From Rhodospirillaceae bacterium (GTDB lineage: Bacteria > Pseudomonadota > Alphaproteobacteria > GCA-2731375): a DNA stretch of 40,473 nucleotides. A model generated the notes under the pieces. That model saw only the letters and a program-made list of their open reading frames with translations. It did no database searches and was not told the DNA's origin. Shown here one piece after another: positions 9,219-33,095 of the stretch (positions are counted from its first letter, which is position 1; each line of letters begins with the position of its first letter). The DNA lies in assembly GCA_018660265.1 (NCBI GenBank), contig JABJKS010000099.1, positions 1 through 40,473 of the forward strand, written 5' to 3'. Position numbers and translations under genes: made by a program.

Positions 9219-10424
9219 TTACATACCCAACACAAGTTTCGCCATGATGTTGCGTTGGATTTCGTTTGATCCACCATAGATGCTGCCCGCCCGGTCGTTT
9301 AGGTAGCGGGCGGTGAGGGACATTTCGTCCCGCTGGCCGATGGGCTGCAAATTGGTGCCGGCCAGGCGTTCTTCCGGCTGATGGGGCGCGGCGTAATAGG
9401 CAATGGCGCGCATGCCCAATTCACTGACCGCCATTTGCACCTCTGTCGCCCTTGTTTTCAACATCGAGGATGCAGCACCTGGGCTGCCCCGTTTGGCGAT
9501 TTCCGCCATGGTGCGCTGTTCGGTGAATTCCACCGTCGTCAGCTCGATCTCCAAGGCCGACAGCTCGCGGGCAAAATCGGCTTCCTGCAACAGGCAGGTG
9601 CCATCGCTTTGCCGCCTTTCTGCTGCCAGGGCGCGAATTTGATTGAGCCGGGTGCGATGGCCCACGGCGCGCGCCCCGCCGCCGCGCTCAAACTCAAGGA
9701 GATATTTCGCGACTGTCCAACCATCGTTCTCGGCCCCAACCCGATTGCTTTTCGGCACCCGGACATCGCTGAAATGCACCTGGTTGAATTCATGATCACC
9801 GCCCAGGATATGGATCGGTTCGACCGTGATGCCGGGGATGCCCATTTCCAACAACAAAAAGGTGATCCCCGCCTGTGGCTTGCCATCCGTAGAGGTGCGG
9901 ACCAGGCAGAACATGCGGTCAGCATGATGCGCCGACGTGGTCCATATTTTGGAGCCGTTAATCACGTAATCATCGCCATCGCTGACCGCCCGGCATTGCA
10001 GGGAAGCCAGGTCCGAGCCCGCGCCCGGTTCGGAATAGCCTTGGCACCAGACATCCTCACCTGAGAGAATGCGAGGCAGATAAAAGGCCTTTTGTTCATC
10101 GCTGCCATGGCCCATCAATGCAGGGGCGACCATGGCCAGGCCCTGGGGCGGCAAGCGCGGCGCGCCGGCGCGGGCGTATTCCTGGGCAAAAATATAGCGG
10201 CGCATGACGTCCCAACCAGGTCCGCCGTATTCTTCAGGCCAGTTCGGTGCGGCCCAACCCTGGCGATACATGATCTTGTGCCATGCCTGGGTCGCCTCAT
10301 GCTCGGCAATAATGGTGGTGCACAGACGCCCGGCCTCGCGGATTTCCGCCGGTATGGCATCGGCCAAAAAAGCCCGAACCTCCTGTTGAAAATTTTGCAG
10401 CTCGCGCGACAGTTCAATATGCAT
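9219..10424 (-). CDS. Acyl-CoA dehydrogenase family protein, copy 1
   Basis: This 401-residue flavoprotein of the acyl-CoA dehydrogenase fold would introduce a double bond into an acyl-CoA and pass electrons to ETF. FAD-binding segments CQGYSEPGAGSDLASLQC and YVINGSKIWTTSAHHAD are in the middle domain, and the terminal segment IYGGSNEIQRNIMAK is at 382-396. In medium- and short-chain enzymes the base lies in YEG; here the residue after Tyr383 is Gly384, so the base must come from elsewhere or be absent. It is highly similar along its whole length to the protein at 11171-12385, which shows gene duplication. Similar proteins work on steroid, dicarboxylic or pimelyl-type acyl-CoAs. ATG 10424 is the natural start. 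Confidence 0.88.
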   Translation of the reverse strand: MHIELSRELQNFQQEVRAFLADAIPAEIREAGRLCTTIIAEHEATQAWHKIMYRQGWAAPNWPEEYGGPGWDVMRRYIFAQEYARAGAPRLPPQGLAMVAPALMGHGSDEQKAFYLPRILSGEDVWCQGYSEPGAGSDLASLQCRAVSDGDDYVINGSKIWTTSAHHADRMFCLVRTSTDGKPQAGITFLLLEMGIPGITVEPIHILGGDHEFNQVHFSDVRVPKSNRVGAENDGWTVAKYLLEFERGGGARAVGHRTRLNQIRALAAERRQSDGTCLLQEADFARELSALEIELTTVEFTEQRTMAEIAKRGSPGAASSMLKTRATEVQMAVSELGMRAIAYYAAPHQPEERLAGTNLQPIGQRDEMSLTARYLNDRAGSIYGGSNEIQRNIMAKLVLGM

Positions 10425-10450
10425 TCGAACGCCCCTTTGTACCGCAATCT

Positions 10451-10559
10451 AGAGCAATTCCGATCCAACGTGAATCGCCCAAAGCACTGGGGCGATCCTA
10501 AGTGATTGGAAAAATTGCTCTATTCTTAAGAGTCTGAGCATTTCCTGATCGGAAATGCT
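10451..10559. repeat. Paired-hairpin intergenic repeat, copy B
   Basis: Hairpin 1 pairs AGAGCAATT (10451-10459) with AATTGCTCT (10513-10521) and has an inner stem ATCGCCC/GGGCGAT (10474-10480 with 10490-10496). Hairpin 2 pairs AGCATTTCC (10537-10545) with GGAAATGCT (10551-10559) around a 5-nt loop. The unit fills the gap between the b561 gene, whose stop codon abuts hairpin 2, and the acyl-CoA dehydrogenase start. It shares its plan and core words with the block at 1308-1422. The AGAGCA...TGCTCT ends resemble palindromic intergenic repeats known from other alphaproteobacteria. Confidence 0.6.
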
Positions 10560-11090
10560 TTAGGCGTTTCGCCCAAACCACATCCTGCCTATGAGATTAT
10601 CCCGCCGGATGAACTGGCGGAAGATAAATCCTGCAAGATGCAAAAGGATCATCGCCATAAGAACCGTACCGAGAATACCGTGGACGGCATGCGGCGCTAC
10701 GGCATGAAAATTTTCAGGCAAAGGCGCCCCGGAACCGCCAAAAAGAATCTGCGGCAAATCGGTCAAAATTGATACGGCAAGGCCGCTGACTGCCATGGCG
10801 ATAACAACCACATAAAACAGTTTATGGATCAGGGGTCCAAGGCGATCCAGAATGGCATTGCCGCTTTCCACCGGCGCAGGTCGCGGTTTCAATATCCGCA
10901 CAATAAAGCGGACGGCCATCAGGACCAGGATCAGCGTACCCATAGTCATATGAAGCTGCAGGTACGCCAGTTTATCCGGATCTGAATTGGGTATCTCCTC
11001 AAGGACAGCCACCCCCATGCCTAATGAGAAGATGATCATCACTGCCAGCAGCCAATGCAGGGCTATAAGAAGGGGATGATAACGCTTCAT
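10560..11090 (-). CDS. Cytochrome b561 family protein
   Basis: This 176-residue integral membrane protein has four predicted helices and histidines placed as in bacterial cytochrome b561: His12 (ALHWLLA), His47 (LQLHMTMG), His89 (IHKLFYVV), His137 (VHGILG) and His151 (LLHLAG). Such proteins hold two b hemes and move electrons between quinone and another carrier; some dispose of superoxide. ATG 11090 is chosen because GGGAG precedes it at six bases; an upstream in-frame start has no such site. The gene sits between two duplicated acyl-CoA dehydrogenases on the same strand, but is bracketed by a palindrome and a hairpin repeat, which suggests an insertion into an older dehydrogenase pair rather than a functional partner. 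Confidence 0.85.
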   Translation of the reverse strand: MKRYHPLLIALHWLLAVMIIFSLGMGVAVLEEIPNSDPDKLAYLQLHMTMGTLILVLMAVRFIVRILKPRPAPVESGNAILDRLGPLIHKLFYVVVIAMAVSGLAVSILTDLPQILFGGSGAPLPENFHAVAPHAVHGILGTVLMAMILLHLAGFIFRQFIRRDNLIGRMWFGRNA

Positions 11091-11118
11091 TTTCCACTCC
11101 CTCAATACGGGCAATACG

Positions 11119-11160
11119 GGGACACAATACCTATATCGACCGATATAAGTATTGTGTCCC
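11119..11160. repeat. Long palindrome, possible RAYT-associated REP/MITE
   Basis: The arms GGGACACAATAC-C-TATATCG and CGATATA-A-GTATTGTGTCCC (11119-11138 and 11141-11160) pair at 19 of 20 positions around a 2-nt centre. No T-run follows in the minus direction, so it is a poor intrinsic terminator. The core GGGGACACAATAC is a word often seen at the ends of palindromic elements moved by REP-associated tyrosine (IS200-like) transposases; this link is from memory and would need a search. CAATACGGG is repeated twice just beside it at 11103-11120. It lies in the leader of the b561 gene, so it could also affect expression of that gene. Confidence 0.65.
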
Positions 11161-11170
11161 GGTATTAAAT

Positions 11171-12385
11171 TTACATACCCAGAACCAGTTTCGCCATGAT
11201 ATTGCGCTGGATCTCGTTTGAGCCGCCGTAGATGGCGGCGGCCCGGTCGTTGAGATAGCGGCCGGTTACGGACATTTCATCGCGCTGCCCGATAGGTTCC
11301 AGATTGGCACCGGGCAGGCGTTCCTCGGGCTGATGGGGGGCTGCATAATAGGCGATGGCCTGCGTCGCCAACTCGCTGATCGCCATTTGCACCTCTGTCG
11401 CGCGGGTCTTCATCATCGAGGATGCCGGGCCCGGACTGCCCCGTTTGGCGATCTCCGCCATGGTGCGGTGCCCGGTATATTCCACGGCAGTCAACTCCAC
11501 ATCCAGGGCTGCCAGGGCGCGGGCAAAGCCGGCATCTCCGATCAGGGCATTGCCGTCACTGTCCCGCCGAGCCTGGGCCAGACCACATATTTCGTCCAGT
11601 CTGGTACGCAAGGGGCCGACACCCACCGCCACGCCCCGTTCAAATTCCAGCAAATACTTGGCCACGGTCCAACCATCGTTCTCCGCCCCCACCCGGCCCG
11701 ATTGGGGCACGCGGACATCCTGGAAAAACACCTGATTGAACTCATGATCCCCGCCTAAGATATGGATCGGCTCCACCGTGATGCCGGGGGTATCCATCTC
11801 CAGCAACAGGAAGGTAATACCGGTCTGTGGTTTGCCATCCGTATTGGTACGCACAAGACAGAACATGCGATTGGCGTGATGCGCGTCCGAGGTCCAGATC
11901 TTGGACCCGTTGATGATGTAGTCGCTGCCATCCGGCCCATCGGCCACGGCCCGGCATTGCAGATTGGCCAGGTCGGAGCCCGCGCCCGGTTCCGAGTAGC
12001 CCTGACACCAGACATCTTCGCCGGACAATATGCGGGGCAGATAGAACGCTTTTTGCGCCGCGCTGCCATGCCCCATGATGGCGGGACCCACCATGGCAAA
12101 GCCCAGGGGTGATAGCGGCGGCGCGCCGGTGCGGGCGTATTCCAAGGAATACAAATAACGCTGCACTGCGTCCCAGCCGGGGCCGCCGTATTCCACCGGC
12201 CAGTTCGGCGCAGCCCAGCCCTGGCGGTGAAGGATCCTGTGCCACTTCCAGGTCGCTTCATGCTCCGCCATAATGGTGGTGCACAGACGGCCCGCCTCCT
12301 TGATATCCGGTGTCAGATTGTCGTTCAGAAAGTCCCGCACCTCGGCCTGAAAGACCCGCTGTTCGTCTGATAGGGATATGTCCAC
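11171..12385 (-). CDS. Acyl-CoA dehydrogenase family protein, copy 2
   Basis: This 404-residue paralogue of the 9219-10424 protein has the same key segments: CQGYSEPGAGSDLANLQC, YIINGSKIWTSDAHHAN, GGDHEFNQV and the end IYGGSNEIQRNIMAK. Gly387 again replaces the YEG catalytic Glu. Differences are spread evenly, as expected for an old duplication. Two such large subunits can form heteromeric dehydrogenases in sterol and pimelate breakdown, so the pair could be subunits of one enzyme; this is inference. Translation begins at GTG 12385 with AGGAG eight bases before it. It lies 22 bases downstream of the acyl-CoA dehydrogenase at 12408 and is probably co-transcribed with it. Confidence 0.88.
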   Translation of the reverse strand: MDISLSDEQRVFQAEVRDFLNDNLTPDIKEAGRLCTTIMAEHEATWKWHRILHRQGWAAPNWPVEYGGPGWDAVQRYLYSLEYARTGAPPLSPLGFAMVGPAIMGHGSAAQKAFYLPRILSGEDVWCQGYSEPGAGSDLANLQCRAVADGPDGSDYIINGSKIWTSDAHHANRMFCLVRTNTDGKPQTGITFLLLEMDTPGITVEPIHILGGDHEFNQVFFQDVRVPQSGRVGAENDGWTVAKYLLEFERGVAVGVGPLRTRLDEICGLAQARRDSDGNALIGDAGFARALAALDVELTAVEYTGHRTMAEIAKRGSPGPASSMMKTRATEVQMAISELATQAIAYYAAPHQPEERLPGANLEPIGQRDEMSVTGRYLNDRAAAIYGGSNEIQRNIMAKLVLGM

Positions 12386-12407
12386 GGCGAATTCTCCTTC
12401 GTCAAGA

Positions 12408-13541
12408 TCAGCTTACCAGGTCCCGCACGATGACCAGTTTCTGAATATCGTTGGTGCCTTCATAAATCCGCGCACCGCGGACACCACGATATATCCGCTC
12501 CAGCGGGAAATCCCGTAAATAGCCATAGCCGCCAAGGGTCTGGATGGCATCGGAGCAGACTTTCTCGGCCATATCGGTGGAAAACATTTTCGCCATGGAG
12601 GCTTCCGTCAAACATTTCCGGCCCGCACTGCGCAGGGCGGCGGCATGCCAAATCAATTGCCGGGCCGCCTCCAACTGCGTTGCCATTTCCGCCAGGCGAA
12701 AGGCCACCGCCTGGTGTTCCATGATGGCTTTGCCGAAGGCCTCCCGCTCCTGCGCATATTCCAGGGCGACTTCAAATGCCGCCCGCGCCATACCCAGGGC
12801 TTGCGCCGCGATGCCTATACGCCCGCCTTCCAGGTTGCCCAGGGCGATACGGTAACCCTGGCCCTCCGCCCCCAATAAGGCATCGTGGGACACGCGCATA
12901 TCCGTAAAGGCCAGCTGGGCGGTGTCAGAGGCATTCAGGCCCATCTTTTCCTCCACCCGTACGACCTCGTAGCCAGGTGTATTGGTTGGTACGATGAAGG
13001 CGGAAATACCCCGCTTGCCCTGATCGGGATCGGTGACGGCAAAGACAAGGGTCAGTTCCGCATTCTTGCCCGTGGTGATGAATTGTTTGGTGCCATTGAT
13101 GACATAGCCATCATCATCACGCACCGCACGGGTGGTCAGCGCGCCGGCATCGGAACCGCCCTTGGCCTCTGTCAGGGCGAAGGCGCAAAGCATTTCGCCC
13201 TGGGCCAGGGGGCGTAGATAGCGTTCCTTTTGCGCCTGACTGCCGTACTCCAGGATTGGCATGCAGCCGACGGAATTATGTCCGCTCATCACAATGGCGA
13301 TGGCACCGTCGCCAGCGGCAATCTCCTCCAATGCCATTGCGTAGGTGACATAGTCCAGACCAGCACCGCCCCATTCCTGCGGCACGGTCATGCCCATCAG
13401 GCCCAGCTTGCCCATAGCCTCGTAAATATGGCGGGGGAAATGCGCCTCGGCTTCCCATTGGGCGGCATGCGGGGCGATTTGCGCGGCGGCAAAGGCCCGG
13501 GCCATATCGCGGATCATGACTTGTTCTTCGGTTGCTATCAT
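12408..13541 (-). CDS. Acyl-CoA dehydrogenase (short/branched-chain or alicyclic type)
   Basis: This 377-residue enzyme has all features of a canonical acyl-CoA dehydrogenase. FAD segment CAFALTEAKGGSDAGA is at about 119-134, YVINGTKQFITTG at 146-158, QAFG-like EREAFG near 265-270, and the catalytic base is Glu361 in RIYEGTNDIQ. It would make an alpha,beta-unsaturated acyl-CoA and hand electrons to ETF. Its position beside two CoA ligases and badHI-like genes suggests the role played by AliB, the cyclohexanecarboxyl-CoA dehydrogenase of Rhodopseudomonas, but short-chain acyl-CoAs are equally possible from sequence alone. ATG 13541 follows GAGGACGGAC and is preferred over an upstream in-frame start that lies inside the preceding gene. 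Confidence 0.9.
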   Translation of the reverse strand: MIATEEQVMIRDMARAFAAAQIAPHAAQWEAEAHFPRHIYEAMGKLGLMGMTVPQEWGGAGLDYVTYAMALEEIAAGDGAIAIVMSGHNSVGCMPILEYGSQAQKERYLRPLAQGEMLCAFALTEAKGGSDAGALTTRAVRDDDGYVINGTKQFITTGKNAELTLVFAVTDPDQGKRGISAFIVPTNTPGYEVVRVEEKMGLNASDTAQLAFTDMRVSHDALLGAEGQGYRIALGNLEGGRIGIAAQALGMARAAFEVALEYAQEREAFGKAIMEHQAVAFRLAEMATQLEAARQLIWHAAALRSAGRKCLTEASMAKMFSTDMAEKVCSDAIQTLGGYGYLRDFPLERIYRGVRGARIYEGTNDIQKLVIVRDLVS

Positions 13542-13555
13542 ATGTCCGTCCTCAC

Positions 13556-15112
13556 TCAGTTCACCTGCCGTTCGTGGCCGTCCCAATAGGGTTTGCGCAA
13601 CTCCCGCTTCAGGATCTTGCCGGACGGATTGCGAGGCAATTCAGCGATAAAGTCGACTGAGCGGGGGATCTTGTACCCGGCGATTTGCGTGCGGGCGTAG
13701 GCGATAATTTCATCCGCCGTCAGTGCCTCACCTGGTTTGGTGACCACGATCGCCTTCACACTCTCGCCCCATTTTTCATCCGGCACGCCGATCACCGCCA
13801 GATCAGCGATCCCCGCCATCCCGGCCAGGGCGCTTTCCACCTCTGCCGGGTAGATGTTCTCCCCACCCGAGACGATCATGTCTTTGACCCGGTCGTGGAT
13901 ATATAAATAGCCTTCGGCGTCGAAATAGCCGGCATCGCCGGAATAGAACCAGCCATTGCGCACCGCCTTGGCGGTTTCTTCCGGTTGGTTCCAATAACCT
14001 TTCATAATCAACGGTCCGGCAATGATCACTTCCCCCACGTCGCCGGGCGCGCAATCGTTGTCATCTTCATCCACCACCCGAATTTGCAGGCCACGCATAG
14101 GCTTGCCGCAGGATTTCATCTTTTCGCTGCCGTCATGATCCTCGGGCGGCAGAAAAGTCACGGCACCCGTGGTTTCGGTCAAACCATAGAGCTGGGCAAA
14201 GCCACAATCGAATATTTCCATTGCTTGTTGCAACACAGGCAGGGGAATGGGGGATGCACCATAGAGCACCATCTTGACGGAAGAGACATCGGTCTCTGCC
14301 GCACCGGGGGTCTGGATCAGGAACAGGATTACCGCCGGGACAAAGATGACCTGGGTAATTCTGTATTTTTCGATACTTTTCAGAATTGCCGGCGGATCCA
14401 CTTCGGGCAACAGAACGTTGGTCGCACCCACATGGAAAGCGCAAAAGGCCCAGACACAGCCCGCAACATGGAACAAAGGCATGGCGACCAGGGAAACATC
14501 ATCCGCCTCCCATTCACCGAAAGTGGTCAACGATATGGGGAAGAATTTGATGAAATTATCATGCGTCAGCTCCACCCCCTTGGGGCGGCCCGTGGTGCCG
14601 GACGAATAGGCCTGCAGGGCGGTATTAGTTGAAGTACCTTCCCGGTGCGGATCATCCACCCCTTGGCTGTCGCGCCAGGCCAGATGATCACCGTTCAGGG
14701 CAACGACCAGGTTCAGCCCCGGTGTATCGCCCCTGACAGCCAGGGCCAGATCCGCGAATTCTTCCGCCACGAACAGCACCTTGGCATCCGCGTCATTGAC
14801 GACAAAGGCAATTTCGGGTGGGGCCAGGCGAAAATTGATCGGCACCAGAACCGCACCTGCCTTGGTCGCACCGTAATAGACCTCAAAAAACAGGTCGATA
14901 TTTTTGGCCAGAATGGCGATCCGCTGGCCCGGTTCCACACCGGCGGCAATGAGGCCGTTGGCAACCTGGTTGGAGCGTTGGTCAAGCTGCGCATAGGTGG
15001 TTTCCCGGCCTTCGAATATCAAGGCTGGATGGTCTGGGCGCTCACCGGCAAACCGGCGGATCGGATCCGCCATGAAGTCAAAGTCAAAACGAGGGTCTAT
15101 TACAGCACTCAT
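13556..15112 (-). CDS. AMP-forming acyl-CoA ligase (FadD family), copy 1
   Basis: This 518-residue ligase activates a carboxylic acid with ATP to an acyl-AMP and then to acyl-CoA. The P-loop YSSGTTGRPKG is at 169-179, the adenylate motif YGLTET at 309-314, YSGDAG at 390-395, and the catalytic C-terminal Lys499 is in NPSGKILK. There is no membrane segment. It is a paralogue of the next upstream gene, with high similarity over the whole length. Start ATG 15112 follows one base after the stop of that gene, with AGGTG as ribosome-binding site, so the two are translationally coupled. Its place next to an acyl-CoA dehydrogenase supports a role at the entry of a degradation pathway; the acid is unknown. 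Confidence 0.92.
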   Translation of the reverse strand: MSAVIDPRFDFDFMADPIRRFAGERPDHPALIFEGRETTYAQLDQRSNQVANGLIAAGVEPGQRIAILAKNIDLFFEVYYGATKAGAVLVPINFRLAPPEIAFVVNDADAKVLFVAEEFADLALAVRGDTPGLNLVVALNGDHLAWRDSQGVDDPHREGTSTNTALQAYSSGTTGRPKGVELTHDNFIKFFPISLTTFGEWEADDVSLVAMPLFHVAGCVWAFCAFHVGATNVLLPEVDPPAILKSIEKYRITQVIFVPAVILFLIQTPGAAETDVSSVKMVLYGASPIPLPVLQQAMEIFDCGFAQLYGLTETTGAVTFLPPEDHDGSEKMKSCGKPMRGLQIRVVDEDDNDCAPGDVGEVIIAGPLIMKGYWNQPEETAKAVRNGWFYSGDAGYFDAEGYLYIHDRVKDMIVSGGENIYPAEVESALAGMAGIADLAVIGVPDEKWGESVKAIVVTKPGEALTADEIIAYARTQIAGYKIPRSVDFIAELPRNPSGKILKRELRKPYWDGHERQVN

Positions 15113-15113
15113 A

Positions 15114-16676
15114 CTAATTCACCTGTCGGTCATAGCCTTCCCAATAAGGCGCGCGCAGTTCACGTTTGAGGATTTTGCCCGACGGATTACGCGGTAACTC
15201 TTCCACAAAATCTACGGAACGGGGAATTTTGTAGCCGGCAACCCTGGTCCGGGCAAAGGCCATGACATCCGCCGCCGTCAGCGTTTCCCCCGGCATAACG
15301 ACAACGACGGCCTTCACGGTTTCGCCCCATTTTTCGTCCGGAACACCGATGACACCCACATCGGCGATTTTCGGATGTCCCTGCAGGGCGCTTTCCACTT
15401 CCGCCGGATAGACGTTTTCCGCGCCAGAGATGATCATGTCCTTGACCCGGTCATAGATATATAAATAGCCTTCGGCATCGAAATACCCCGCATCGCCGGA
15501 GTATAGCCAGCCATCCCGAATAGCCCGGGCGGTTTCCCCGGCCAGGTTCCAATAGCCCTTGGTGATGGTCTTACCCTTGATGATAATTTCGCCCACCGCT
15601 TCCGGTTCGCAATCCTTGCCGTCCGCATCCACCACACGGATTTCAGCCCCCAGCATGACCCTGCCCACGGACTTCATCTTGCGGCTGCCGTCGTGATCCT
15701 GGGGCGGCAGATAGGTGACGCCGCCGACGGTTTCGGTCAAGCCATACAGCTGGCCAAAACCACAATTGAACATGGCCACCGCTTCTTCCAACACCGGCAG
15801 GGGAATGGGCGATGCGCCATACATGATCATCTTGACGGAGGAGACATCCGTGTCCGCAGCACCTGGCGTTTGCAGACAAAACAGGATCACCGCCGGCACC
15901 AACAGGGCCTGGGTTACTCTGTATTTTTCGATGGTTTTCAGAATGGCCGCCGGGTCAACCTCCGGCATCAGGACGTTGGTGCCGCCCACATAAAGTGCTG
16001 TGTAGGACCACACGCTGCCAGCCGCATGAAACAGCGGATTGGTCACCAGACAGACATCGCTGTCATCCCAGGCACCCCATTCATCCATGGCATTGGGCAG
16101 ATATTGGATGAAGTTGTCATGGCTGACTTCCACCCCCTTGGGATGCCCCGTGGTTCCCGATGAATAGACCTGGATAACAGTGTCGTGTTCGGATACCTCC
16201 GCCCGGGGATCACCAAAAGCCTGAGCCTCCCGCCATGTAGCATAGTCCGTCCAATCCCCATGCCCGCTATGAAGCGTAAATATCTGCCGTACCAAGGGCA
16301 GTTCTACGCGGATGCCATCGATCAGATCATAATAGTCCTCCCCCACCAACAACAGCGGGGCCTGGGCATCGTTGAGGACATAGGCCACCTCGGGCGGGGC
16401 AAGGCGGAAATTGACGGGGGTGAGGACGGCGCCCACTTTGGAGGCACCGTATAACAGCTCGTAAAACAGATCGATGTTCTTGGCCAAAAGCGCGATGCGC
16501 TGGCCCGGCTGGACCCCGGCTGCGACCAGGCCATTGGCAACCTGGTTGGCGCGCCGGTCCAATTCGGCATAAGTGGTCTTTCGCCCCTCGAAAATAACGG
16601 CGATATTATCGCCCTTTTCAGCGGCGTAATGGCGGATCGGGTCCGCCTTAAATCGATAGCCATCACGATTACTCAA
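15114..16676 (-). CDS. AMP-forming acyl-CoA ligase (FadD family), copy 2
   Basis: This ligase of 520 residues shows the same motifs as its neighbour: YSSGTTGHPKG, YGLTETVGG, YSGDAGYFDAEG and the C-terminal NPSGKILKREL. The frame stays open upstream through the enoyl-CoA hydratase region, but that part is the reverse-frame shadow of the badI-like gene and has no ligase similarity. Translation most likely starts at TTG 16676: GGGGAGG lies eight bases upstream and the product then aligns with the first residues of copy 1 (DPIRHYAAEK against DPIRRFAGER). No ATG fits. The leader contains the end of a terminator-like hairpin only about 35 bases before the start. The acid substrate is unknown; an alicyclic acid is plausible from context. 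Confidence 0.9.
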   Translation of the reverse strand: MSNRDGYRFKADPIRHYAAEKGDNIAVIFEGRKTTYAELDRRANQVANGLVAAGVQPGQRIALLAKNIDLFYELLYGASKVGAVLTPVNFRLAPPEVAYVLNDAQAPLLLVGEDYYDLIDGIRVELPLVRQIFTLHSGHGDWTDYATWREAQAFGDPRAEVSEHDTVIQVYSSGTTGHPKGVEVSHDNFIQYLPNAMDEWGAWDDSDVCLVTNPLFHAAGSVWSYTALYVGGTNVLMPEVDPAAILKTIEKYRVTQALLVPAVILFCLQTPGAADTDVSSVKMIMYGASPIPLPVLEEAVAMFNCGFGQLYGLTETVGGVTYLPPQDHDGSRKMKSVGRVMLGAEIRVVDADGKDCEPEAVGEIIIKGKTITKGYWNLAGETARAIRDGWLYSGDAGYFDAEGYLYIYDRVKDMIISGAENVYPAEVESALQGHPKIADVGVIGVPDEKWGETVKAVVVVMPGETLTAADVMAFARTRVAGYKIPRSVDFVEELPRNPSGKILKRELRAPYWEGYDRQVN

Positions 16677-16711
16677 TTTACACGCCTCCCCAAATCTCCC
16701 TGCGCACAAAA

Positions 16712-16748
16712 AAAGACCGCTCGCTACAGGGCGTAGAGAGCGGTCTTT
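16712..16748 (-). terminator. Intrinsic terminator or attenuator between badI-like and ligase genes
   Basis: AAAGACCGCTC (16712-16722) and GAGCGGTCTTT (16738-16748) pair perfectly, and the stem extends inward with CTAC/GTAG after one mismatch. Read on the minus strand, the stem ends in GGTC followed by eight T, a standard intrinsic terminator, 25 bases after the badI-like stop codon. It also lies within the leader of the next gene on the same strand, so read-through control is possible. Confidence 0.85.
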
Positions 16749-16773
16749 ACTATACAGATTTTCACGGCTGTCA

Positions 16774-17565
16774 TCAGCGTGGTTGATACTTCCGAAAATC
16801 CGGTTTGCGTTTTTCCTGGAAGGCGGTGACGCCCTCTTTGGATTCCTCAGATTCGTAGTAGGCCTTAACCGATTGGAAGCCCAAGATGCCCAAACCCCGG
16901 ATATGTTCCGTATCCGCATTAAAGCTGCGCTTGGCGATGGCCAGGGCAGTGGGGCTTTTGGCCATGATTTCCTGGCACCATTTATCCACTTCAGCGTCCA
17001 ACTGATCGGCCGGCACGACTTCGTTGACCAGACCCATATCCTTGGCCTCGACGGCGGAATAACGCCGACACAGATACCAGATTTCCCTGGCCTTTTTTTC
17101 TCCCACCAGACGGGCCAGATAGGCGGTGCCATAACCGGGATCAACCGACCCCATGGCCGGTCCAACCTGCCCGAAGATGGCCGTATCGGCTGCAATGGAT
17201 AGATCACAAAGAACATGCAGCACGTGACCACCGCCAATGGCATAGCCATTGACCCGGGCAATGACCGGCTTGGGTATATCGCGGATAATGGTGTGCAATT
17301 CCTCCATCGGCATGCCCAAGGTGCCCCGGCCGCCATAGCTGCCGTCGTGGGAATCGGAAGATTGATCACCACCGGTGCAAAATGCCTTGTCGCCCACACC
17401 GGTCAGCACCACGACGCCAATGTCGGGGTTCCAGCCGGACATACTGAAGGCCTTGATCAGTTCCTCAGCCGTTTGATTGCGAAAGGCGTTGTATTTGTCC
17501 GGGCGGTTGATGGTGATCGTCGCCACGCCGTCCTTCTCGGTATAGATGATGTCCTGGAAATCCAT
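16774..17565 (-). CDS. badI: 2-ketocyclohexanecarboxyl-CoA hydrolase-like crotonase (BadI)
   Basis: This 263-residue crotonase-fold enzyme is close to BadI, which opens the ring of 2-ketocyclohexanecarboxyl-CoA to pimelyl-CoA in Rhodopseudomonas palustris. Characteristic segments are NRPDKYNAFR at 20-29, AFCTGGDQS at 61-69, PMEELHTIIRDIPKPVIAR, the oxyanion GYAIGGGHVL at 107-116, FGQVGPAMGSVDPGYGTAYLARLVGEKKAREIWY at 131-164 and QEKRKPDFRKY at the end. The group also resembles MenB (dihydroxynaphthoyl-CoA synthase), but the FGQVGPxMGSVDPGYG pattern next to a BadH homologue favours BadI. It starts 4 bases after the SDR stop and is followed by a terminator. The assignment is by remembered sequence similarity. 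Confidence 0.82.
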   Translation of the reverse strand: MDFQDIIYTEKDGVATITINRPDKYNAFRNQTAEELIKAFSMSGWNPDIGVVVLTGVGDKAFCTGGDQSSDSHDGSYGGRGTLGMPMEELHTIIRDIPKPVIARVNGYAIGGGHVLHVLCDLSIAADTAIFGQVGPAMGSVDPGYGTAYLARLVGEKKAREIWYLCRRYSAVEAKDMGLVNEVVPADQLDAEVDKWCQEIMAKSPTALAIAKRSFNADTEHIRGLGILGFQSVKAYYESEESKEGVTAFQEKRKPDFRKYQPR

Positions 17566-17569
17566 GATC

Positions 17570-18319
17570 CTAACCGTGCATGGTCAAGCCGCCGGAAACC
17601 GAGATGGTTTGCCCGGTGATATAAGACGCATCGTCGGATAGGAAGAAGGAAACCAGGCCCGGATAATCCTCCGGCTCGGCAACCCGCTTCATAGGTACGG
17701 CACGCTCCAGCGCGGCGACGAGTTTCGGCCCCTGTTCTGCCAGCAAAGGCGTATTGGTGGGTCCGGGACAAATGGTGTTCAAAGTGATCTGCTTGCGCGC
17801 CAATTCCCGGCTCATGGTTTTGGAAAAGGCGATCAGGCCGCCCTTGCAGGCGGCATAAACTGCCTCGCCGGAGGAGCCGACCCGGCCCGCATCGGAGGAG
17901 ATGTTGACTACCCGGCCACTGCCCCGTTCCGCCATGCCCTTGAGGATGACATGGCACAGGTTCAAGGGGCCGTACAAATTGATGGCAACAACCTTGTGCC
18001 AAAGTTCCAGGTCCGTATCCAGGAAGGGCATGGATTTATCCCAACCCGCGTTGTTGACCAAGCCATCGACTGGACCGTGATCGCCTTCAAATGCGGTAAC
18101 GGCAGCATCAACAGCGCCATAGTCGGAAATATCCAGGGCATAGCCGCTGGCGGAACCACCCGCTGCGCGAATTTTCTCGGCCACTGCATTGGCACCGTCG
18201 CCGTTCAGGTCGAAAATGCCTACATTGCAGCCTTCTTCACCCAGGCGCAGGCTGATGGCCTGGCCAATGCCGCTGGCACCGCCGGTTAAAACGACATTCT
18301 TTCCTGTTAATCCGCGCAT
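17570..18319 (-). CDS. badH: 2-hydroxycyclohexanecarboxyl-CoA dehydrogenase-like SDR (BadH)
   Basis: This 249-residue short-chain dehydrogenase has TGGASGIG at 12-19 for NAD binding, the acidic FDLN at 36-39 that favours NAD over NADP, NNAG at 89-92, and catalytic Ser142, Tyr155 and Lys159 in the order S-x12-YAACK. SSDAGRVGSSGEAVYAACKGG and the end SVSGGLTMHG match BadH closely. BadH oxidises 2-hydroxycyclohexanecarboxyl-CoA to the 2-keto compound, the substrate of BadI, whose homologue is the next gene. ATG 18319 has GGAG nine bases before it; longer starts were rejected. The gene is divergent from a lactonase gene across a 133-base region containing an operator-like dyad. Confidence 0.82.
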   Translation of the reverse strand: MRGLTGKNVVLTGGASGIGQAISLRLGEEGCNVGIFDLNGDGANAVAEKIRAAGGSASGYALDISDYGAVDAAVTAFEGDHGPVDGLVNNAGWDKSMPFLDTDLELWHKVVAINLYGPLNLCHVILKGMAERGSGRVVNISSDAGRVGSSGEAVYAACKGGLIAFSKTMSRELARKQITLNTICPGPTNTPLLAEQGPKLVAALERAVPMKRVAEPEDYPGLVSFFLSDDASYITGQTISVSGGLTMHG

Positions 18320-18396
18320 TATCAAATCTCCACTAAGCTGGTCATCATGAAATTCCCTGAAACATAAAAGCAAACAAACTTCGAGTCTCGATTTTG

Positions 18397-18412
18397 TTGT
18401 AGCCTGCTACAA
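18397..18412. promoter_or_regulatory. Operator-like dyad between badH-like and lactonase genes
   Basis: TTGTAGC and GCTACAA are perfect inverted 7-mers separated by CT, centred in the divergent 133-base region, 78 bases before the badH-like start and about 40 bases before the lactonase start. The size (16 bp) fits a dimeric regulator of the MarR, GntR or TetR kind. In R. palustris the badHI genes are controlled by the MarR-type BadR; no regulator gene lies in this window, so the match to BadR is only a guess. Confidence 0.55.
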
Positions 18413-18452
18413 TCAGCCGCAACAACCGCAGCTACTATAAGGACAGAGAATT

Positions 18453-19214
18453 ATGACTGTACGCCTTTTCGCCATGACTTGTGGCTGGCTGACCATGCCC
18501 ATGACTAATTTTCTGGTGGGGGAAGAAGGCGACATTCGCCTGCCTGTCCCTGCCTTTTTAATAGATCACCCCAAAGGCCAGGTTCTGTTCGACACCGGTC
18601 TGCATACGGATTTGTTGAATCCCATCGATAGACGCGCCCAGGTCATCACCAAACATTTCAACCCGGAGTTTAAAGCCGGAGAAGAACTGGCCGCCCGTTT
18701 GGAATTTTGCGACGTGGACGTGACCAAGGTTCGTTATCTGATTAATTCCCACCTGCATTTTGATCACGCAGGCGGCAATCACCAGGTCCCGAACGCGCAA
18801 TTGATCGTGCAAAAACGGGAATGGCTGGCCGGTCATGACCCGGACCTGATGCAATCCAACGGGTTCGCGCTGGCAGATTATGACCATGGCCACGATTTGA
18901 ACCTTGTGGATGGGGAACATGACCTGTTTGGCGACGGCAGTGTCGTCTGCCTCCCCACCTATGGCCACACGCCGGGCCATCAATCCCTAAAGGTGCGTCT
19001 GGGTAGCGGCGATGTGCTGTTGGCAGGCGATGCCTGTTATTTGCGCCAGACATTGGAAAATCTGCATCTGCCAAAGATAGTCCACAGCAAGGAGGAGATG
19101 CTGGAAAGCCTGCACCGTATCCGCGCCCTGCAAACGGCGGGCGCCCGCATCTTCTATGGTCATGACGCGGATTTCTGGAAAACCGTGCCCCAAGCCCCGG
19201 CGGAAGTGGTATAA
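18453..19214 (+). CDS. Metallo-beta-lactamase-fold lactonase (AHL-lactonase family-like)
   Basis: This 253-residue protein belongs to the metallo-beta-lactamase superfamily. The dinuclear metal motif is HLHFDH at 100-105, with further ligand candidates His172/His176 in YGHTPGH and Asp193 in LLAGDA. SHLHFDHAGGN and FLIDHPKGQVLFDTG are typical of the N-acyl homoserine lactonase branch (AttM/AiiB), which hydrolyse lactone rings. Since the gene diverges from a badH-like gene across one dyad, a catabolic lactone may be the real substrate rather than a quorum signal; that is inference. No signal peptide is visible, so it is cytoplasmic. Start ATG 18453 follows AAGGACAG. Confidence 0.8.
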   Translation: MTVRLFAMTCGWLTMPMTNFLVGEEGDIRLPVPAFLIDHPKGQVLFDTGLHTDLLNPIDRRAQVITKHFNPEFKAGEELAARLEFCDVDVTKVRYLINSHLHFDHAGGNHQVPNAQLIVQKREWLAGHDPDLMQSNGFALADYDHGHDLNLVDGEHDLFGDGSVVCLPTYGHTPGHQSLKVRLGSGDVLLAGDACYLRQTLENLHLPKIVHSKEEMLESLHRIRALQTAGARIFYGHDADFWKTVPQAPAEVV

Positions 19215-19794: not shown

Positions 19795-20727
19795 ATGACA
19801 GTTGAAATCAATCCCGGCGAAATGCTGAAAGACAAAGTAATCCTGGTAACCGGCGCTGGCCGCGGCGTGGGCCGTGACATCGCCCTGATGGCGGCCAGCC
19901 AAGGCGCCAAAGTGATCGTCAACGATCTGGGCGGTCAGGCTGATGGCGAGGGTGAGGATAAGACCCCGGCCATGGAAGTTGTCGGTGACATCAAGGCCGC
20001 CGGTGGCGAAGCTGCTGCCAACTATGGCTCTGTTGCAGATTTCGGCGCGGCCGAGGCGATGATCCAACAGGCCGTGGACACCTATGGCAAGATCGACGGC
20101 GTCGTCAACAACGCCGGCAGCCTGCGCGATGTCATCTTCCACAAAATGACCGAGGAAGAATGGGACATCGTCATCGCCGTGCACCTGAAAGGCTGCTTCA
20201 ACGTGGCCCGTGCCGCCGCCACCCGTTTTCGGGAGCAGAAAAGCGGTGCCTTCGTGCACATGACCTCCACCTCCGGTCTGGTGGGTAACTTTGGCCAAGC
20301 CAACTATGCCGCCGCCAAGTTGGGTATCGTCGGTCTGTCCAAGTCCCTGGCGCTGGATATGTCACGCTTTGGTGTGCGTTCCAACTGCATCTCTCCTTTC
20401 GCCTGGAGCCGCCTGATCGGCACCATTCCCATTTCTTCGGACGAGGAAGCCGCCCGGGTCGAAAAGATCAAGGCCATGACCCCGGCCAAGATTGCCCCCA
20501 TGGCCGTGTTCCTGCTGTCCGATGCGGCAAAGGACGTCACAGCGCAGATCTTTGGCGTGCGGCACAATGAAATCTTCCTGTTCAACCAGCCCCGTCCGGT
20601 CCGTTCGGTCCAGCGTACGGATGGCTGGACGCCCGAGACCATTGCCGAGCACGCCTTGCCCGCAATGGCTTCCAGCTTCATGCCGCTGGAACGCAGTGGC
20701 GACGTCTTCAGCTGGGATCCCGTCTAA
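19795..20727 (+). CDS. MFE-2-like short-chain dehydrogenase (3-hydroxyacyl-CoA dehydrogenase type)
   Basis: This 310-residue SDR resembles the dehydrogenase part of peroxisomal multifunctional enzyme type 2. TGAGRGVG at 19-26 and VNDLGG at 42-47 form the nucleotide site, NNAG is at 105-108, and the catalytic set ends in Tyr171 and Lys175 (ANYAAAK). The long insertion after the second strand (GGQADGEGEDKTPAMEVV) and the C-terminal extension of about 60 residues are typical of the MFE-2 branch and absent from small SDRs. It would oxidise a (3R)-hydroxyacyl-CoA or a similar substrate with NAD+. The MaoC-type hydratase that would supply the substrate is the next gene, so the two look like a split MFE-2. 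ATG 19795 follows a GAGAAGG site. Confidence 0.85.
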   Translation: MTVEINPGEMLKDKVILVTGAGRGVGRDIALMAASQGAKVIVNDLGGQADGEGEDKTPAMEVVGDIKAAGGEAAANYGSVADFGAAEAMIQQAVDTYGKIDGVVNNAGSLRDVIFHKMTEEEWDIVIAVHLKGCFNVARAAATRFREQKSGAFVHMTSTSGLVGNFGQANYAAAKLGIVGLSKSLALDMSRFGVRSNCISPFAWSRLIGTIPISSDEEAARVEKIKAMTPAKIAPMAVFLLSDAAKDVTAQIFGVRHNEIFLFNQPRPVRSVQRTDGWTPETIAEHALPAMASSFMPLERSGDVFSWDPV

Positions 20728-20746
20728 GACGGTATAATCAAATTAT

Positions 20747-20777
20747 AGCCGGGCCCCGAATTAGTCAGGGCCCGGCT
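20747..20777 (+). terminator. GC-rich hairpin between the SDR and hydratase genes
   Basis: AGCCGGGCCC (20747-20756) and GGGCCCGGCT (20768-20777) pair perfectly around an 11-nt loop, followed by GTATTTGTT. The stem is strong and the U-rich tail moderate. It would stop or slow transcription between two genes that should act together, so it may be an attenuator or an RNA-processing and stability site rather than a complete stop. Confidence 0.65.
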
Positions 20778-20812
20778 GTATTTGTTCCGGCACAAATCAA
20801 AGGAACGCAGCA

Positions 20813-21670
20813 ATGGCAATCGATTACGACAAAATCATGAATTGGCCGTTCGAGGAAGTGGTGCAAAGTTATGACACCCGCGACAGCATTCTGTATGCCC
20901 TGGGTGTTGGCCTGAACATGGACCCCTTGGATGAAGAGCAACTGCGCTTCACCTACGAAGACAACATGAACGCCCTGCCGACCATGGCGGTTGTGCTGGG
21001 CACGCCCGGTTTCTGGGTCAAGGATCCCGACAGCGGTATTGATTGGGTCAAGGTTCTGCATGGCGAACAGGGCATGGTCCTGCACAAGCCCCTGCCCCCC
21101 GCAGCCACGGTAACGGCCACCACCAAAGTAACCGAGATTATCGATAAAGGTGAGGGCAAGGGCGCGTTGTTGCTGCAAGAGCGCACGGTTACGGATCAGG
21201 CAACCGGCGACAAACTGGCGACCCTGTATTCCACCACCTTTGCCCGTGGCGACGGCGGTTTCGGCGGTCCTACGACAGGTGCCCGTCCGGTCCATAGCCT
21301 ACCGGAGCGGGAACCCGACATGGTCTGCGATTTACCCACCCTGCCCCAGGCGGCCCTGATCTATCGTCTGTCAGGCGACTATAATCCTTTGCATGCGGAT
21401 CCGAACGTGGCCAAGGGCGGTGGCTTTAAGGCACCGATCCTGCATGGCTTGTGCAGTTTTGGTGTGGCCGGTCATGCCATTCTAAAATCCTGCTGCGATT
21501 ATGATCCATCGCGCTTTAAATCCATGAACCTGCGCTTTTCCGCTCCGGTGTATCCGGGCGAGACCATCCGTACAGAGATGTGGAAAGACGATAACGTTAT
21601 CTCGTTCCGCGCCAAGGTTTTGGAACGGGACGTTATGGTTTTGAACAACGGTCGGGCCGACGTCGGTTAA
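20813..21670 (+). CDS. MaoC-like (R)-specific enoyl-CoA hydratase (MFE-2 hydratase-2 type)
   Basis: This 285-residue protein is a double hot-dog hydratase like the hydratase-2 part of MFE-2. The catalytic motif YRLSGDYNPLHADP gives Asp189, Asn191 and His194, and the downstream PILHGLCSFG is the conserved helix after the active site. It would hydrate a trans-2-enoyl-CoA to the (3R)-hydroxyacyl-CoA. The N-terminal half (residues 1-140) is the catalytically inactive hot-dog that holds the acyl chain. It lies 85 bases after the MFE-2-like SDR with a hairpin between. The stop codon TAA overlaps an ATG of a 38-residue frame that follows. ATG 20813 has AAAGGAACG upstream. Confidence 0.9.
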   Translation: MAIDYDKIMNWPFEEVVQSYDTRDSILYALGVGLNMDPLDEEQLRFTYEDNMNALPTMAVVLGTPGFWVKDPDSGIDWVKVLHGEQGMVLHKPLPPAATVTATTKVTEIIDKGEGKGALLLQERTVTDQATGDKLATLYSTTFARGDGGFGGPTTGARPVHSLPEREPDMVCDLPTLPQAALIYRLSGDYNPLHADPNVAKGGGFKAPILHGLCSFGVAGHAILKSCCDYDPSRFKSMNLRFSAPVYPGETIRTEMWKDDNVISFRAKVLERDVMVLNNGRADVG

Positions 21671-29997: not shown

Positions 29998-31518
29998 ATG
30001 ACGCCTGTTCCCGCCAATGACTGGATTGCCCACCACGCCCGCTTTGTTCCAACGCACGAGGCCATGCATGATCTGGCCTCTGACCGGCATTTCACCTATG
30101 CGGAGATGGACCGCCGCGTTGACAAGGTGGCGCTGTACCTGCGTGACGGCCTTGGCGTGCAAGACGGCGACCGGGTGGCGGTGTTGTGCCACAACGATAC
30201 CGACGTTCTGGAAATACAATTCGCCTGCCGCCGCCTGGGCGCGATCTTCCTGCCCTTGAATTGGCGTCTGGCTGTGCCGGAATTGGAATATATCTGCAAC
30301 GATGCGACCCCAAGGACACTCCTTTATGGCACAGAATTCGCCGGGGAGGCCGCCGAAATCCAGCGCCTGGCCGGGGTTCCTAGCCTTGCCAGCCTGAATA
30401 ACGGCGGCAACAGCGATTATGAGACGGGCCTGGCGGCGGCATCCGGCAAAATTTCCGCGCCCGCGCGGACCTTGGGCGATATCTGGACCATCATGTATAC
30501 CTCCGGCACCACGGGCCGGCCCAAGGGTGCCAAGATCACCTATGAAATGGCCACATTTAATGCGATCCAATGCGCCATGACGGTTGAAATCCACGGCGGC
30601 TCTAAAAATCTGGTGATCTTGCCGCTATTCCATACCGGCGGTCTGAACGTTTACGCCAATCCCGTCTTTCATGTCGGCGGCAGCAACGTTGTGCCCCGGT
30701 CATTTGATCCGACTTATTTCCTGGATCTGTTGTCGGACAAAGAAATGCATCTGACCCACGCGCTTGGCGTACCGACAAATTTCCTGATGCTGGCCCAGGA
30801 GGCGAAATTCGCTGACGCGGACCTCTCCCATGTCATTTGTCTAAGCGTCGGTGGTGCAGCGGCACCGCTATCCCTGATAGAGGAATATGGTGCCAAGGGC
30901 ATTCAATTGCAGCAAGGCTGGGGCATGACGGAAACCGGCCCCCTGGGGCTGATGCTTTCGGGTGAACAGGCCTTGGCGAAAGTCGGCTCTTCCGGGCTGC
31001 CGCCCCTTTATGTCGGGCTGCGTATTGTCGATGAGGCCCGCGATGAAGTGGCCCAGGGGGAAACGGGCGAATTATTGATCAAGGCACCCACCGTCACGCC
31101 GGGCTATTGGAACCGGGAGAGCGAGCACGATGAATTCTTCACCCCCGATGGCTGGTTCCATACCGGTGATGCCGCCCGTCAGGACGACGACGGTTACTAT
31201 TATATCGTTGACCGGACCAAGGATATGTTCATTTCCGGCGGAGAGAACGTCTATCCGGTGGAGGTGGAGAACGTCATTTTCCAACTGGATGGGGTATTGG
31301 AAAATGCCGTCATCGGCATCGAAGACGAAAAATGGGGCGAGGTTGGCCGCGCCTGCGTCGTGCTGAAGCCGGGTGCCAATCTGGACGAAGATGCCGTTAT
31401 TGGGCATTGCCAAGGCCAGCTGGCCCGCTACAAGATGCCAAAGCAGGTCCGCTTCATGGATGAATTGCCCCACAACGCCACGGGCAAAGTCCTGAAGCAC
31501 GAATTGCGCCGGGAATAA
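29998..31518 (+). CDS. AMP-forming acyl-CoA ligase, tandem copy A
   Basis: This 506-residue ligase has P-loop YTSGTTGRPKG at 167-177, GWGMTETGPLG in the adenylate site, HTGDAARQDDDGYYYIVDR and catalytic Lys497 in NATGKVLK. It activates a carboxylic acid to its CoA thioester. It is a full-length paralogue of the next gene (31578-33095) and clearly separate from the pair at 13556-16676, whose motifs differ (YSSGTTG, YGLTET, NPSGK). There is no membrane segment. It begins 20 bases after the EVE gene. The acid is unknown; homologues include medium- and long-chain acyl-CoA synthetases. Confidence 0.92.
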   Translation: MTPVPANDWIAHHARFVPTHEAMHDLASDRHFTYAEMDRRVDKVALYLRDGLGVQDGDRVAVLCHNDTDVLEIQFACRRLGAIFLPLNWRLAVPELEYICNDATPRTLLYGTEFAGEAAEIQRLAGVPSLASLNNGGNSDYETGLAAASGKISAPARTLGDIWTIMYTSGTTGRPKGAKITYEMATFNAIQCAMTVEIHGGSKNLVILPLFHTGGLNVYANPVFHVGGSNVVPRSFDPTYFLDLLSDKEMHLTHALGVPTNFLMLAQEAKFADADLSHVICLSVGGAAAPLSLIEEYGAKGIQLQQGWGMTETGPLGLMLSGEQALAKVGSSGLPPLYVGLRIVDEARDEVAQGETGELLIKAPTVTPGYWNRESEHDEFFTPDGWFHTGDAARQDDDGYYYIVDRTKDMFISGGENVYPVEVENVIFQLDGVLENAVIGIEDEKWGEVGRACVVLKPGANLDEDAVIGHCQGQLARYKMPKQVRFMDELPHNATGKVLKHELRRE

Positions 31519-31577
31519 GTGGGGCTAATTGGGGACTAATTGTCAAAGATGTACACAAACCAGTTGGAAGTAATATT

Positions 31578-33095
31578 ATGAGCATCCCCGTCAAGGACTG
31601 GATCAAACACCACGCCGACTTTACGCCAAACAAGGAGGCATTGGTCGACCTTGCCTCTAATCGCAAGTTCACCTATGCCGAGATGGACGCCCGCGTCACC
31701 CGCGCCGCACTGTATTTGCGCGATGGTGTGGGTGTCGCGGACGGCGAACGGGTTGCCCTGCTGTGCCATAACGACAGCGACGCCTTTGAAATTCAGTTCG
31801 CCTGTCGCCGGATTGGGGCCATTTTCATGCCCCTCAACTGGCGCCTGGCCGTGGCGGAACTGGAATACATCTGCAACGATGGCGAGCCGAAAGTCCTGGT
31901 CCATGGTAAGGAATTCGCCAGTCAGGCAAAGGAAATCCAGGCATTATGCGGCACTGCCCATTTGGTCGGCCTGAATAACGGCGGCACCAGCGACTACGAA
32001 ACCGGTCTGGCCGCGGCCAATGGCGAACTTGTCCCGTTGGCGAAAGATCTGACCGATACCTGGACCATCATGTACACATCCGGCACCACGGGCCGGCCCA
32101 AAGGTGCGCGCATGACTTACCAAATGGCGGTCTTTAACGCCATTCATTGCGCCATGACAACATCGTTGACCGAAACTTCGAAAAATTTGGTCTTTCTGCC
32201 GACCTTCCATACCGGGGGCCTGAACGTTTATGCCAACCCCATCTTCCATACCGGCGGCACCAACGTTGTCCTGCGGGAATTCAATTCGGCGTATTTTCTG
32301 GAACTATTATCGGACAAGGAATTGCATCTGACCCATATGTTCGGCGTGCCTACGAATTTCCTGATGATGGCCCAGGAACCAGGATTTGCCGACGCCGACC
32401 TGTCCCACCTGATGACCCTGGGCATCGGTGGTGCCGCCGCACCCCTGGCCTTGATCGAGGATTTCGCCGCCAAGAATATCATACTGCAACAAGGTTGGGG
32501 CATGACGGAAACCGGGCCTTTGGGCCTGTTGCTGTCGCCGGATCAGACCTTGGCCAAGGTTGGCTCCTCCGGCCTGCCGACAATGTATGTCAGCCTGAAA
32601 ATCTGTGATGCAACCGGTGCCGAAGTCGCAAAGGGGGGCGAGGGCGAATTGATGATCAAAGGCCCCACGGTCACGCCCGGCTATTGGAACCGGGAGGCGG
32701 AGCATGATGATTTCTTCACCGCCGATGGCTGGTTCCACACCGGTGATGTGGCCCGGCAGGATGAAGACGGCTATTACTACATCGTAGACCGGACCAAGGA
32801 TATGTACATCTCGGGTGGAGAGAACGTCTATCCGGCAGAGGTGGAAAACGTCATATTTGAAATGGACGGGGTGCTTGAAAACGCCGTCATCGGTGTGCCG
32901 GATGAAAAATGGGGCGAGGTCGGACGCGCCTGCATCGTCCTCAAGCCGGGCTCCAACCTGGACGAGGATGCGGTCATTGACCATTGCAATGATAAATTGG
33001 CCCGCTTCAAGGTCCCAAAACAGGTCCGCTTTATGGACGAATTACCCCACAACGCCACCGGCAAAGTCCTGAAGCATCAGATCCCACGGGACTGA
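31578..33095 (+). CDS. AMP-forming acyl-CoA ligase, tandem copy B
   Basis: This 505-residue paralogue of copy A has the same motifs in the same places (YTSGTTGRPKG, GWGMTETGPLG, HTGDVARQDEDGYYYIVDR, NATGKVLK with Lys496). The two copies share most residues over the core, while the ends differ (HQIPRD here against HELRRE), so this is a duplication that has diverged rather than an assembly repeat. The 59-base gap between the copies has no hairpin. Differences around the acyl pocket, such as FNSAYFLELLSDKELHLTHMFGVPTNF against FDPTYFLDLLSDKEMHLTHALGVPTNF, may shift chain-length preference; this is inference. The start is ATG 31578. Confidence 0.92.
   Translation: MSIPVKDWIKHHADFTPNKEALVDLASNRKFTYAEMDARVTRAALYLRDGVGVADGERVALLCHNDSDAFEIQFACRRIGAIFMPLNWRLAVAELEYICNDGEPKVLVHGKEFASQAKEIQALCGTAHLVGLNNGGTSDYETGLAAANGELVPLAKDLTDTWTIMYTSGTTGRPKGARMTYQMAVFNAIHCAMTTSLTETSKNLVFLPTFHTGGLNVYANPIFHTGGTNVVLREFNSAYFLELLSDKELHLTHMFGVPTNFLMMAQEPGFADADLSHLMTLGIGGAAAPLALIEDFAAKNIILQQGWGMTETGPLGLLLSPDQTLAKVGSSGLPTMYVSLKICDATGAEVAKGGEGELMIKGPTVTPGYWNREAEHDDFFTADGWFHTGDVARQDEDGYYYIVDRTKDMYISGGENVYPAEVENVIFEMDGVLENAVIGVPDEKWGEVGRACIVLKPGSNLDEDAVIDHCNDKLARFKVPKQVRFMDELPHNATGKVLKHQIPRD

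Follow-up and report, generated by a model that had tools for sequence, protein, structure and literature searches.

A BadH/BadI pair whose probable AliA, AliB and BadK partners are encoded on other contigs of a Rhodospirillaceae genome

Introduction

Does a gene pair for alicyclic ring opening work with the ligases and dehydrogenases encoded beside it, or are its partners to be sought elsewhere in the genome? This question is raised by contig JABJKS010000099.1 of a Rhodospirillaceae bacterium (assembly GCA_018660265.1), which was analyzed over its positions 1 to 40,473 and is referred to here as the window, or as contig C113 of a genome that is 5.5 Mb in size and 97% complete. Going by the isolate names of the assemblies that hold the closest loci, the host is probably marine. 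A preliminary description of positions 12408-18319 had recognized a short-chain dehydrogenase/reductase (SDR) resembling BadH and a hydrolase resembling BadI, enzymes that convert 2-hydroxy- to 2-ketocyclohexanecarboxyl-coenzyme A (CoA) and open its ring to pimelyl-CoA. From the genes that follow, it had proposed an alicyclic acid pathway that brings along a ligase for activation and a dehydrogenase resembling AliB. Here, we assign the pair to the BadH and BadI families, argue that its upstream partners are probably encoded on two other contigs, and describe a neighboring acyl-CoA dehydrogenase that belongs to a lineage of its own.

Results

Both members of the pair are encoded on the minus strand. 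The badH gene (17570-18319) codes for a putative 2-hydroxycyclohexanecarboxyl-CoA dehydrogenase of the SDR type, and badI (16777-17565) for a crotonase that is putatively the ring-opening 2-ketocyclohexanecarboxyl-CoA hydrolase. The two reading frames are separated by 4 bp (17566-17569), in line with the four bases first described. They were identified through family models, with other bad-ali clusters as comparison. The best NCBIfam model for the window BadI is TIGR03210 (badI) with 445.9 bits, at least 95 bits above the MenB models that score highest (350.9 and 328.1 bits), and the best model for the window BadH is TIGR03206 with 334.8 bits, which exceeds the next one, FabG (210.4 bits), by 124 bits. 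Both scores fall under the curated cut-offs of 467.6 and 431.2 bits, respectively. We take the TIGR03210 cut-off as not separating function here, since the best BadI misses it in 21 of 50 genomes (those of 50 of the 80 loci were searched), five of which (G014, G031, G033, G048 and G049) have AliB within 3 kb. For BadH, none of ten scanned proteins, nine from other lineages and one from the relative L006, reaches the cut-off (325.6-426 bits). The window BadI contains the motif FGQVGPAMGSVDPGYG, and its Ser140, Asp142 and Tyr237 align with the Ser, Asp and Tyr of MenB that we take to be catalytic, while BadH carries Tyr155/Lys159 and GGASGIG. Each protein is the single strong match to its family in the genome, the next scoring 149.4 bits for BadI and 178.6 bits for BadH.

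Grouping with MenB or with a generic SDR, named in the preliminary description as the outcome that would speak against its assignment, was not observed, since the tree rows separate the pair from both. The BadI tree comprises 94 rows, taken from hits with at least 50% identity and at least 85% cover, and was built by a quick method; the window's own copies (L081, L097, L121 and L127) were excluded and several duplicates from re-fetched genomes were kept. Its two MenB outgroup rows split off with a support of 99 in the Shimodaira-Hasegawa-like approximate likelihood ratio test (SH-aLRT). The window clade lies within the BadI part, where its branching order relative to a Marinobacter BadI encoded beside aliB and to the other 79 rows is unresolved (83), and a Rhodococcus plasmid row stands outside on a long branch. 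The BadH tree, also made by a quick method (with 19 duplicate or AliB-search loci excluded), clusters the window BadH with SDRs adjoining badI and leaves generic SDRs outside (support 94 for 54 rows). Median identity to the other family members is 70.7% for BadI and 56.2% for BadH, compared to 74.8% and 60.4% among those others. The window clade has few fixed residues of its own relative to other BadI and BadH proteins, and the pair is no outlier. By family placement, the initial naming of the pair is sound and its members are genuine BadH and BadI.

Candidates for all five genes, aliA, aliB, badK, badH and badI, are present in the genome, distributed over the three contigs C113, C109 and C14. 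None of the four candidates that have a model reaches the cut-off of that model, and for BadK the assignment draws on sequence identity and gene context. The best AliB match lies at C109:195027-196139 (556.5 bits, TIGR03207 cut-off 575.35) and is 50-65% identical to the AliB of other loci; genes for a TRAP-TAXI transporter are divergent from it. Directly after this aliB, at C109:196211-196972, follows a hydratase gene whose product is 49-59% identical to the hydratases that nine loci (L037, L043, L046, L051, L054, L068, L077, L079 and L080) encode next to aliB or badI, and other frames for which it is the best query show at most 40% identity. The preliminary description had seen no clear BadK hydratase near the pair and had allowed for one elsewhere, and the gene behind the C109 aliB is the likely answer to this puzzle. 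The best AliA match in the genome, C14:9960-11552, scores 680.2 bits (TIGR03208 cut-off 792.3) and shares 46-53% identity with the ligase encoded in bad-ali clusters. PimC-like and PimD-like proteins are encoded next to each other on contig C80, with 447.4 and 450.8 bits (cut-offs 623.85 and 652.7). Overall, the repertoire of acyl-CoA enzymes in this genome is wide: at E 1e-3, the badI model gives 79 matches and the AliB model 71.

The same separation of badI from aliB is found in the seven close relatives (L001-L006 and L008), whose BadI is 87-91% identical to that of the window: in 7 of 7, BadI and AliB are encoded on separate contigs. The contigs of these relatives are fragments, two of those with BadI being 190 and 294 kb long. 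Linkage of aliB to badK is kept in all four relatives that were fetched. Counting by hand over the 50 genomes, we found BadI and AliB at most 10 kb apart in 27 (27 of the 43 other than close relatives), on a shared contig at a distance of about 21 kb in two (G041 and G045), and on different contigs in ten, namely the seven close relatives and three more; AliB was not found at E 1e-100 in the remaining 11.

The genes that follow badI on the minus strand have a different character. Ligase 1 (15114-16676; a TTG start is proposed) and ligase 2 (13556-15112) are AMP-dependent acyl-CoA ligases of the generic PRK06187 type, and they are tandem duplicates with 65% identity. Ligase 1 scores 569 bits with NF004837. 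With the AliA model, ligases 1 and 2 reach 222 and 221 bits, the 14th and 15th best scores in the genome, versus 680 bits for the C14 protein and a cut-off of 792.3; membership in the AliA family is not supported for them. The acyl-CoA dehydrogenase encoded next, acad1 (12408-13541), is of the short/branched-chain type and has the Glu motif IYEGTND. Its best model is NF042972 (422 bits), followed by NF043006 (320 bits), and the AliB model gives 225 bits, the seventh score in the genome, versus 556.5 bits on C109. Given the AliB cut-off of 575.35 and the Asp motif IGDGT in 11 of 11 AliB rows, acad1 is ruled out as AliB. The alicyclic pathway inferred earlier stands as the best reading, and the idea that its ligase and AliB lie beside the pair is not supported at the level of family membership. 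Two ligases and three dehydrogenases do follow on the same strand, as was noted, with only acad1 among the dehydrogenases lying inside 12408-18319. A second acyl-CoA ligase tandem is encoded on the plus strand (29998-33095), with 73% mutual identity and 35-37% identity to ligases 1 and 2.

The two outer dehydrogenases, acad2 (11171-12385) and acad3 (9219-10424), are 76% identical to each other, and for both the best NCBIfam model is TIGR03204 (PimC), with 347.6 and 365.5 bits. These scores are far from the cut-off of 623.85 and better PimC/PimD candidates exist on C80, so we rejected both as PimC. The gene flanked by these PimC-like dehydrogenases (10560-11114, minus strand) codes for a cytochrome b561-type membrane protein (PF01292, 81.6 bits), which places acad3 behind it.

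A terminator-like hairpin on the minus strand (16712-16748; 16708-16748 with its T run) separates badI from ligase 1. It folds with -23.0 kcal/mol and is followed by Ts, and the z-score of the folded region is -3.06. A simple terminator scanner did not list this hairpin, and it returned eight terminator-like sites in the region versus a shuffle mean of 11.2. L005 and L006 have strong hairpins without a long T run in the corresponding position (-30.8 and -31.2 kcal/mol), the hairpin search in L001-L004 gave weak structures or none, and that of L008 (-17.3 kcal/mol) overlaps the end of badI. A ligase gene follows badI in L003, L005, L006 and, judged by eye, in L001, where the contig ends; there is none in three of the seven relatives (L002, L004 and L008), in which acad1 comes next. 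The terminator-like hairpin together with the varying ligases weakens the case for a single operon from badH to acad3. We regard the ligases, acad2 and acad3 as accessory genes.

Acad1 belongs to a widespread family. Out of 385 genomes from the class, 50 contain a match at E 1e-152, and 11 of the 50 have BadI anywhere; within these 50, acad1 adjoins badI only in the window genome and in three congeneric ones. In the fetched flanks of 45 other family members, no relative of BadI, BadH or AliA with at least 40% identity was found. A first, smaller and careful tree (L127-L134 excluded) joins the window clade with L063 and L069 at a support of 100/99. Among 19 distinct relatives outside this clade, that of G048 shares a contig with badI at a distance of about 10 kb, and the other 18 are on contigs without BadI. 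A second tree of 78 rows, made by a quick method (L127-L134, L159, L209-L211 and L001 excluded), yields a clade of 11 rows, consisting of the window clade (seven rows), L063, L069, L162 and L182, with an SH-aLRT support of 98 and 64 rows outside. Its members have badI, a BadH-like SDR or aliA near acad1; in the genome of L003 (G003), the distance between badI and acad1 is about 18 kb. The acad1 relative of L063 adjoins aliA (832.9 bits, above the cut-off) and badI. In L069, the acad1 relative adjoins a BadH-like SDR (262 bits), badI, aliA (747.7 bits) and a hydratase. AliB was not found at E 1e-100 in either genome, which incomplete assemblies may explain. L162 has its acad1-type gene beside a BadH-like SDR (47%) only, and BadI on another contig. 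In L182 (G232:C1:3813000-3832500), the acad1-type gene is near an AliA-like ligase (53%), a BadH-like SDR (48%) and hydratase-like frames, and its genome gave no BadI match at E 1e-85; it may therefore hold another ring-opening route. Taken together, the link between the acad1 lineage and bad/ali genes is suggestive and not exclusive. L069 also has a VIT-family gene (PF01988; 10844-11596, plus strand) between badI and aliA.

Structures were of limited help in classifying AliB and acad1, as the PDB search returned only general acyl-CoA dehydrogenases as useful matches. Entry 7xp7, named cyclohexanecarboxyl-CoA dehydrogenase, matched acad1 with 227 bits, a score that many other entries exceeded, and is missing from the AliB structure list at E 1e-40. 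A search of the open-access literature that was not aimed at this point alone returned nothing on an acad1-type substitute for AliB.

Upstream of badH lies a conserved element with the core tTGCGGCtgAtTGtAGCAGnnnccAACAA (18392-18422, minus strand), a possible regulator site that is present in all seven sequences covering this stretch, i.e. the window and six relatives. As a 31-bp element tying loci together it was rejected, with best scores of 7.7 (L101) and 6.3 (L102) versus 41-47 at its own seven sites. The palindrome TTGTAGCCTGCTACAA also failed as a regulon marker: it is exact only at 18397, occurs at ten places with up to two mismatches versus 22 for the reversed control, and is not conserved in relatives. 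The same intergenic region serves a gene divergent from badH (18453-19214, plus strand) for an AttM-like metallo-hydrolase, a putative lactonase (NF045700, 172.4 bits, cut-off 390). It is present in five of the seven relatives and was not found in L006; the contig of L004 begins at badI and covers neither this gene nor the conserved element. Further along the plus strand (19795-21670), a PRK07791-like SDR gene adjoins one for a MaoC/MFE-2-type hydratase, and this SDR is also found near badH in several relatives.

Discussion

We consider it probable that badHI belong to a dispersed, apparently complete cyclohexanecarboxylate (bad-ali) pathway whose upstream steps are encoded elsewhere in the genome. 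This reading is drawn from sequence, namely from the family placement of the pair, its single strong matches, the locations of the AliA-, AliB- and BadK-like genes, the occurrence of badI and aliB on different contigs in relatives, and conservation. Substrates, reaction order and the joint operation of the separate loci we infer from the known enzymes. AliA (C14) would activate cyclohexanecarboxylate to its CoA thioester, AliB (C109) would dehydrogenate it, and the BadK-like neighbor on C109, encoded beside the divergent TRAP transporter, would hydrate the product. BadH would then oxidize 2-hydroxycyclohexanecarboxyl-CoA to the 2-keto thioester, which BadI would open hydrolytically to pimelyl-CoA. 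Pimelyl-CoA could enter beta-oxidation, perhaps via the PimC/PimD-like pair on C80.

Several observations weigh against this proposal. The AliA, AliB, PimC and PimD matches are all under curated cut-offs. No dedicated BadK model was among the hits, and the BadK-like gene is a candidate by identity and context. Neither the C109 nor the C14 locus yielded the conserved element that precedes badH, and the BadR site known from the literature, CAAN4TTG, is absent from the three control regions scanned (the badR gene was not searched genome-wide), so common regulation is unsupported. In addition, in G117, which belongs to the family but to a different genus, badI adjoins an AliB that is 60% identical to that on C109; the split is therefore not family-wide. 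Three unrelated genomes (G011, G021 and G027) also have BadI and AliB on different contigs.

Other explanations of the locus have to be measured against these findings. That the pair is misnamed, being MenB and a generic SDR, could be suspected because the solved structures nearest by sequence are MenB enzymes and the two best MenB models still give 328-351 bits; the advantage of the badI and BadH models, the split of the two MenB rows and the company of SDRs beside badI make this highly improbable. It is also conceivable that the pair serves a block for polycyclic, steroid-like or terpenoid rings, with acad2 and acad3 as FadE26-like pointers. The best PDB match of acad2 is 4x28, presumably the FadE26-FadE27 complex of steroid side-chain oxidation, and the many matches to the badI and AliB models in this genome would suit such a block. 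The window BadI, however, groups with the BadI of bad-ali clusters, and of the window proteins scanned, none scored above the cut-off of a steroid-specific model (a genome-wide search for steroid families was not part of the analysis); we regard this explanation as improbable, if less so than misnaming.

A better case, which we nevertheless hold to be unlikely, can be made for a substituted ring such as monoterpene acids (e.g. perillate) or naphthenic acids, with the local ligases and dehydrogenases serving that substrate and its branched product. The local accessory enzymes are unlike AliA and AliB, and PMC4109377 describes MrcD/MrcE, relatives of BadH/BadI proposed to act on an isopropenyl-substituted ring. 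A plasmid of Azoarcus KH32C carries a pair without aliAB nearby, which we take to be the one given there as 85-88% identical to MrcD/MrcE, and the window proteins share 56% (BadH) and 63% (BadI) identity with it. Clusters of badKHI without aliAB have also been reported (PMC9795900). Yet, the window BadI is nearer to BadI proteins adjoining canonical AliB (67-73% identity) than to this mrcE-type protein of Azoarcus, the genome has a candidate for every step of the plain bad-ali pathway, and no BadK/MrcF-like gene occurs at the pair (9219-19214). We thus retain the dispersed cyclohexanecarboxylate pathway as the best reading.

The product of acad1 may be an additional dehydrogenase for ring or branched-chain acyl-CoA that is distinct from AliB. 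It may still do an AliB-like job, because two genomes without an AliB match have relatives of it adjoining badI and aliA. More tentatively, and with the odds rather against it, its lineage could be a second, Glu-type line of alicyclic acyl-CoA dehydrogenases derived from ordinary short/branched-chain ones, which would have replaced AliB in L063 and L069 and joined badHI in the window genus. The latter would then possess two ring dehydrogenases, perhaps for different ring substrates.

For annotation, these results suggest that a BadHI pair should not by default be read with the ligase or dehydrogenase adjoining it, since its likely partners can be distant. Acad1 and its relatives in L063, L069, L162 and L182 constitute a named candidate for an alternative to AliB, which, if true, matters for predicting degraders of cyclohexane acids and naphthenic acids. 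Overall, we are probably dealing with a known pathway in rearranged form, in which acad1 is the one testable candidate for novelty.

Its closest parallel is the bad-ali pathway of Rhodopseudomonas palustris and Aromatoleum sp. CIB. According to PMC9795900, the bad-ali genes of the latter work with and without oxygen, badK is frequently outside the cluster, and dispersed or incomplete clusters have already been described. The window genome shares with this pathway the adjacent badH and badI, candidates for five activities, and a pair without badK, as in known clusters. It differs in that aliA and aliB-badK are on contigs separate from that of badHI, that badHI are accompanied by generic ligases and a dehydrogenase other than AliB, and that the control regions, where scanned, are without a BadR-type site. 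With mrcDEF of Castellaniella defragrans (PMC4109377), it has in common a BadH/BadI-type pair outside an aliAB cluster and in the company of other accessory genes, whereas the window pair is without the adjacent BadK/MrcF-like gene. The pim genes resemble acad2 and acad3 in that PimC is their best NCBIfam model, and are unlike them in the distance to the cut-off and in the lack of an adjoining PimD. Finally, acad1 shares its family and Glu motif with the NF042972-like short/branched-chain acyl-CoA dehydrogenases, but stands apart from them in a separate lineage of 11 rows that is linked to bad/ali-type genes.

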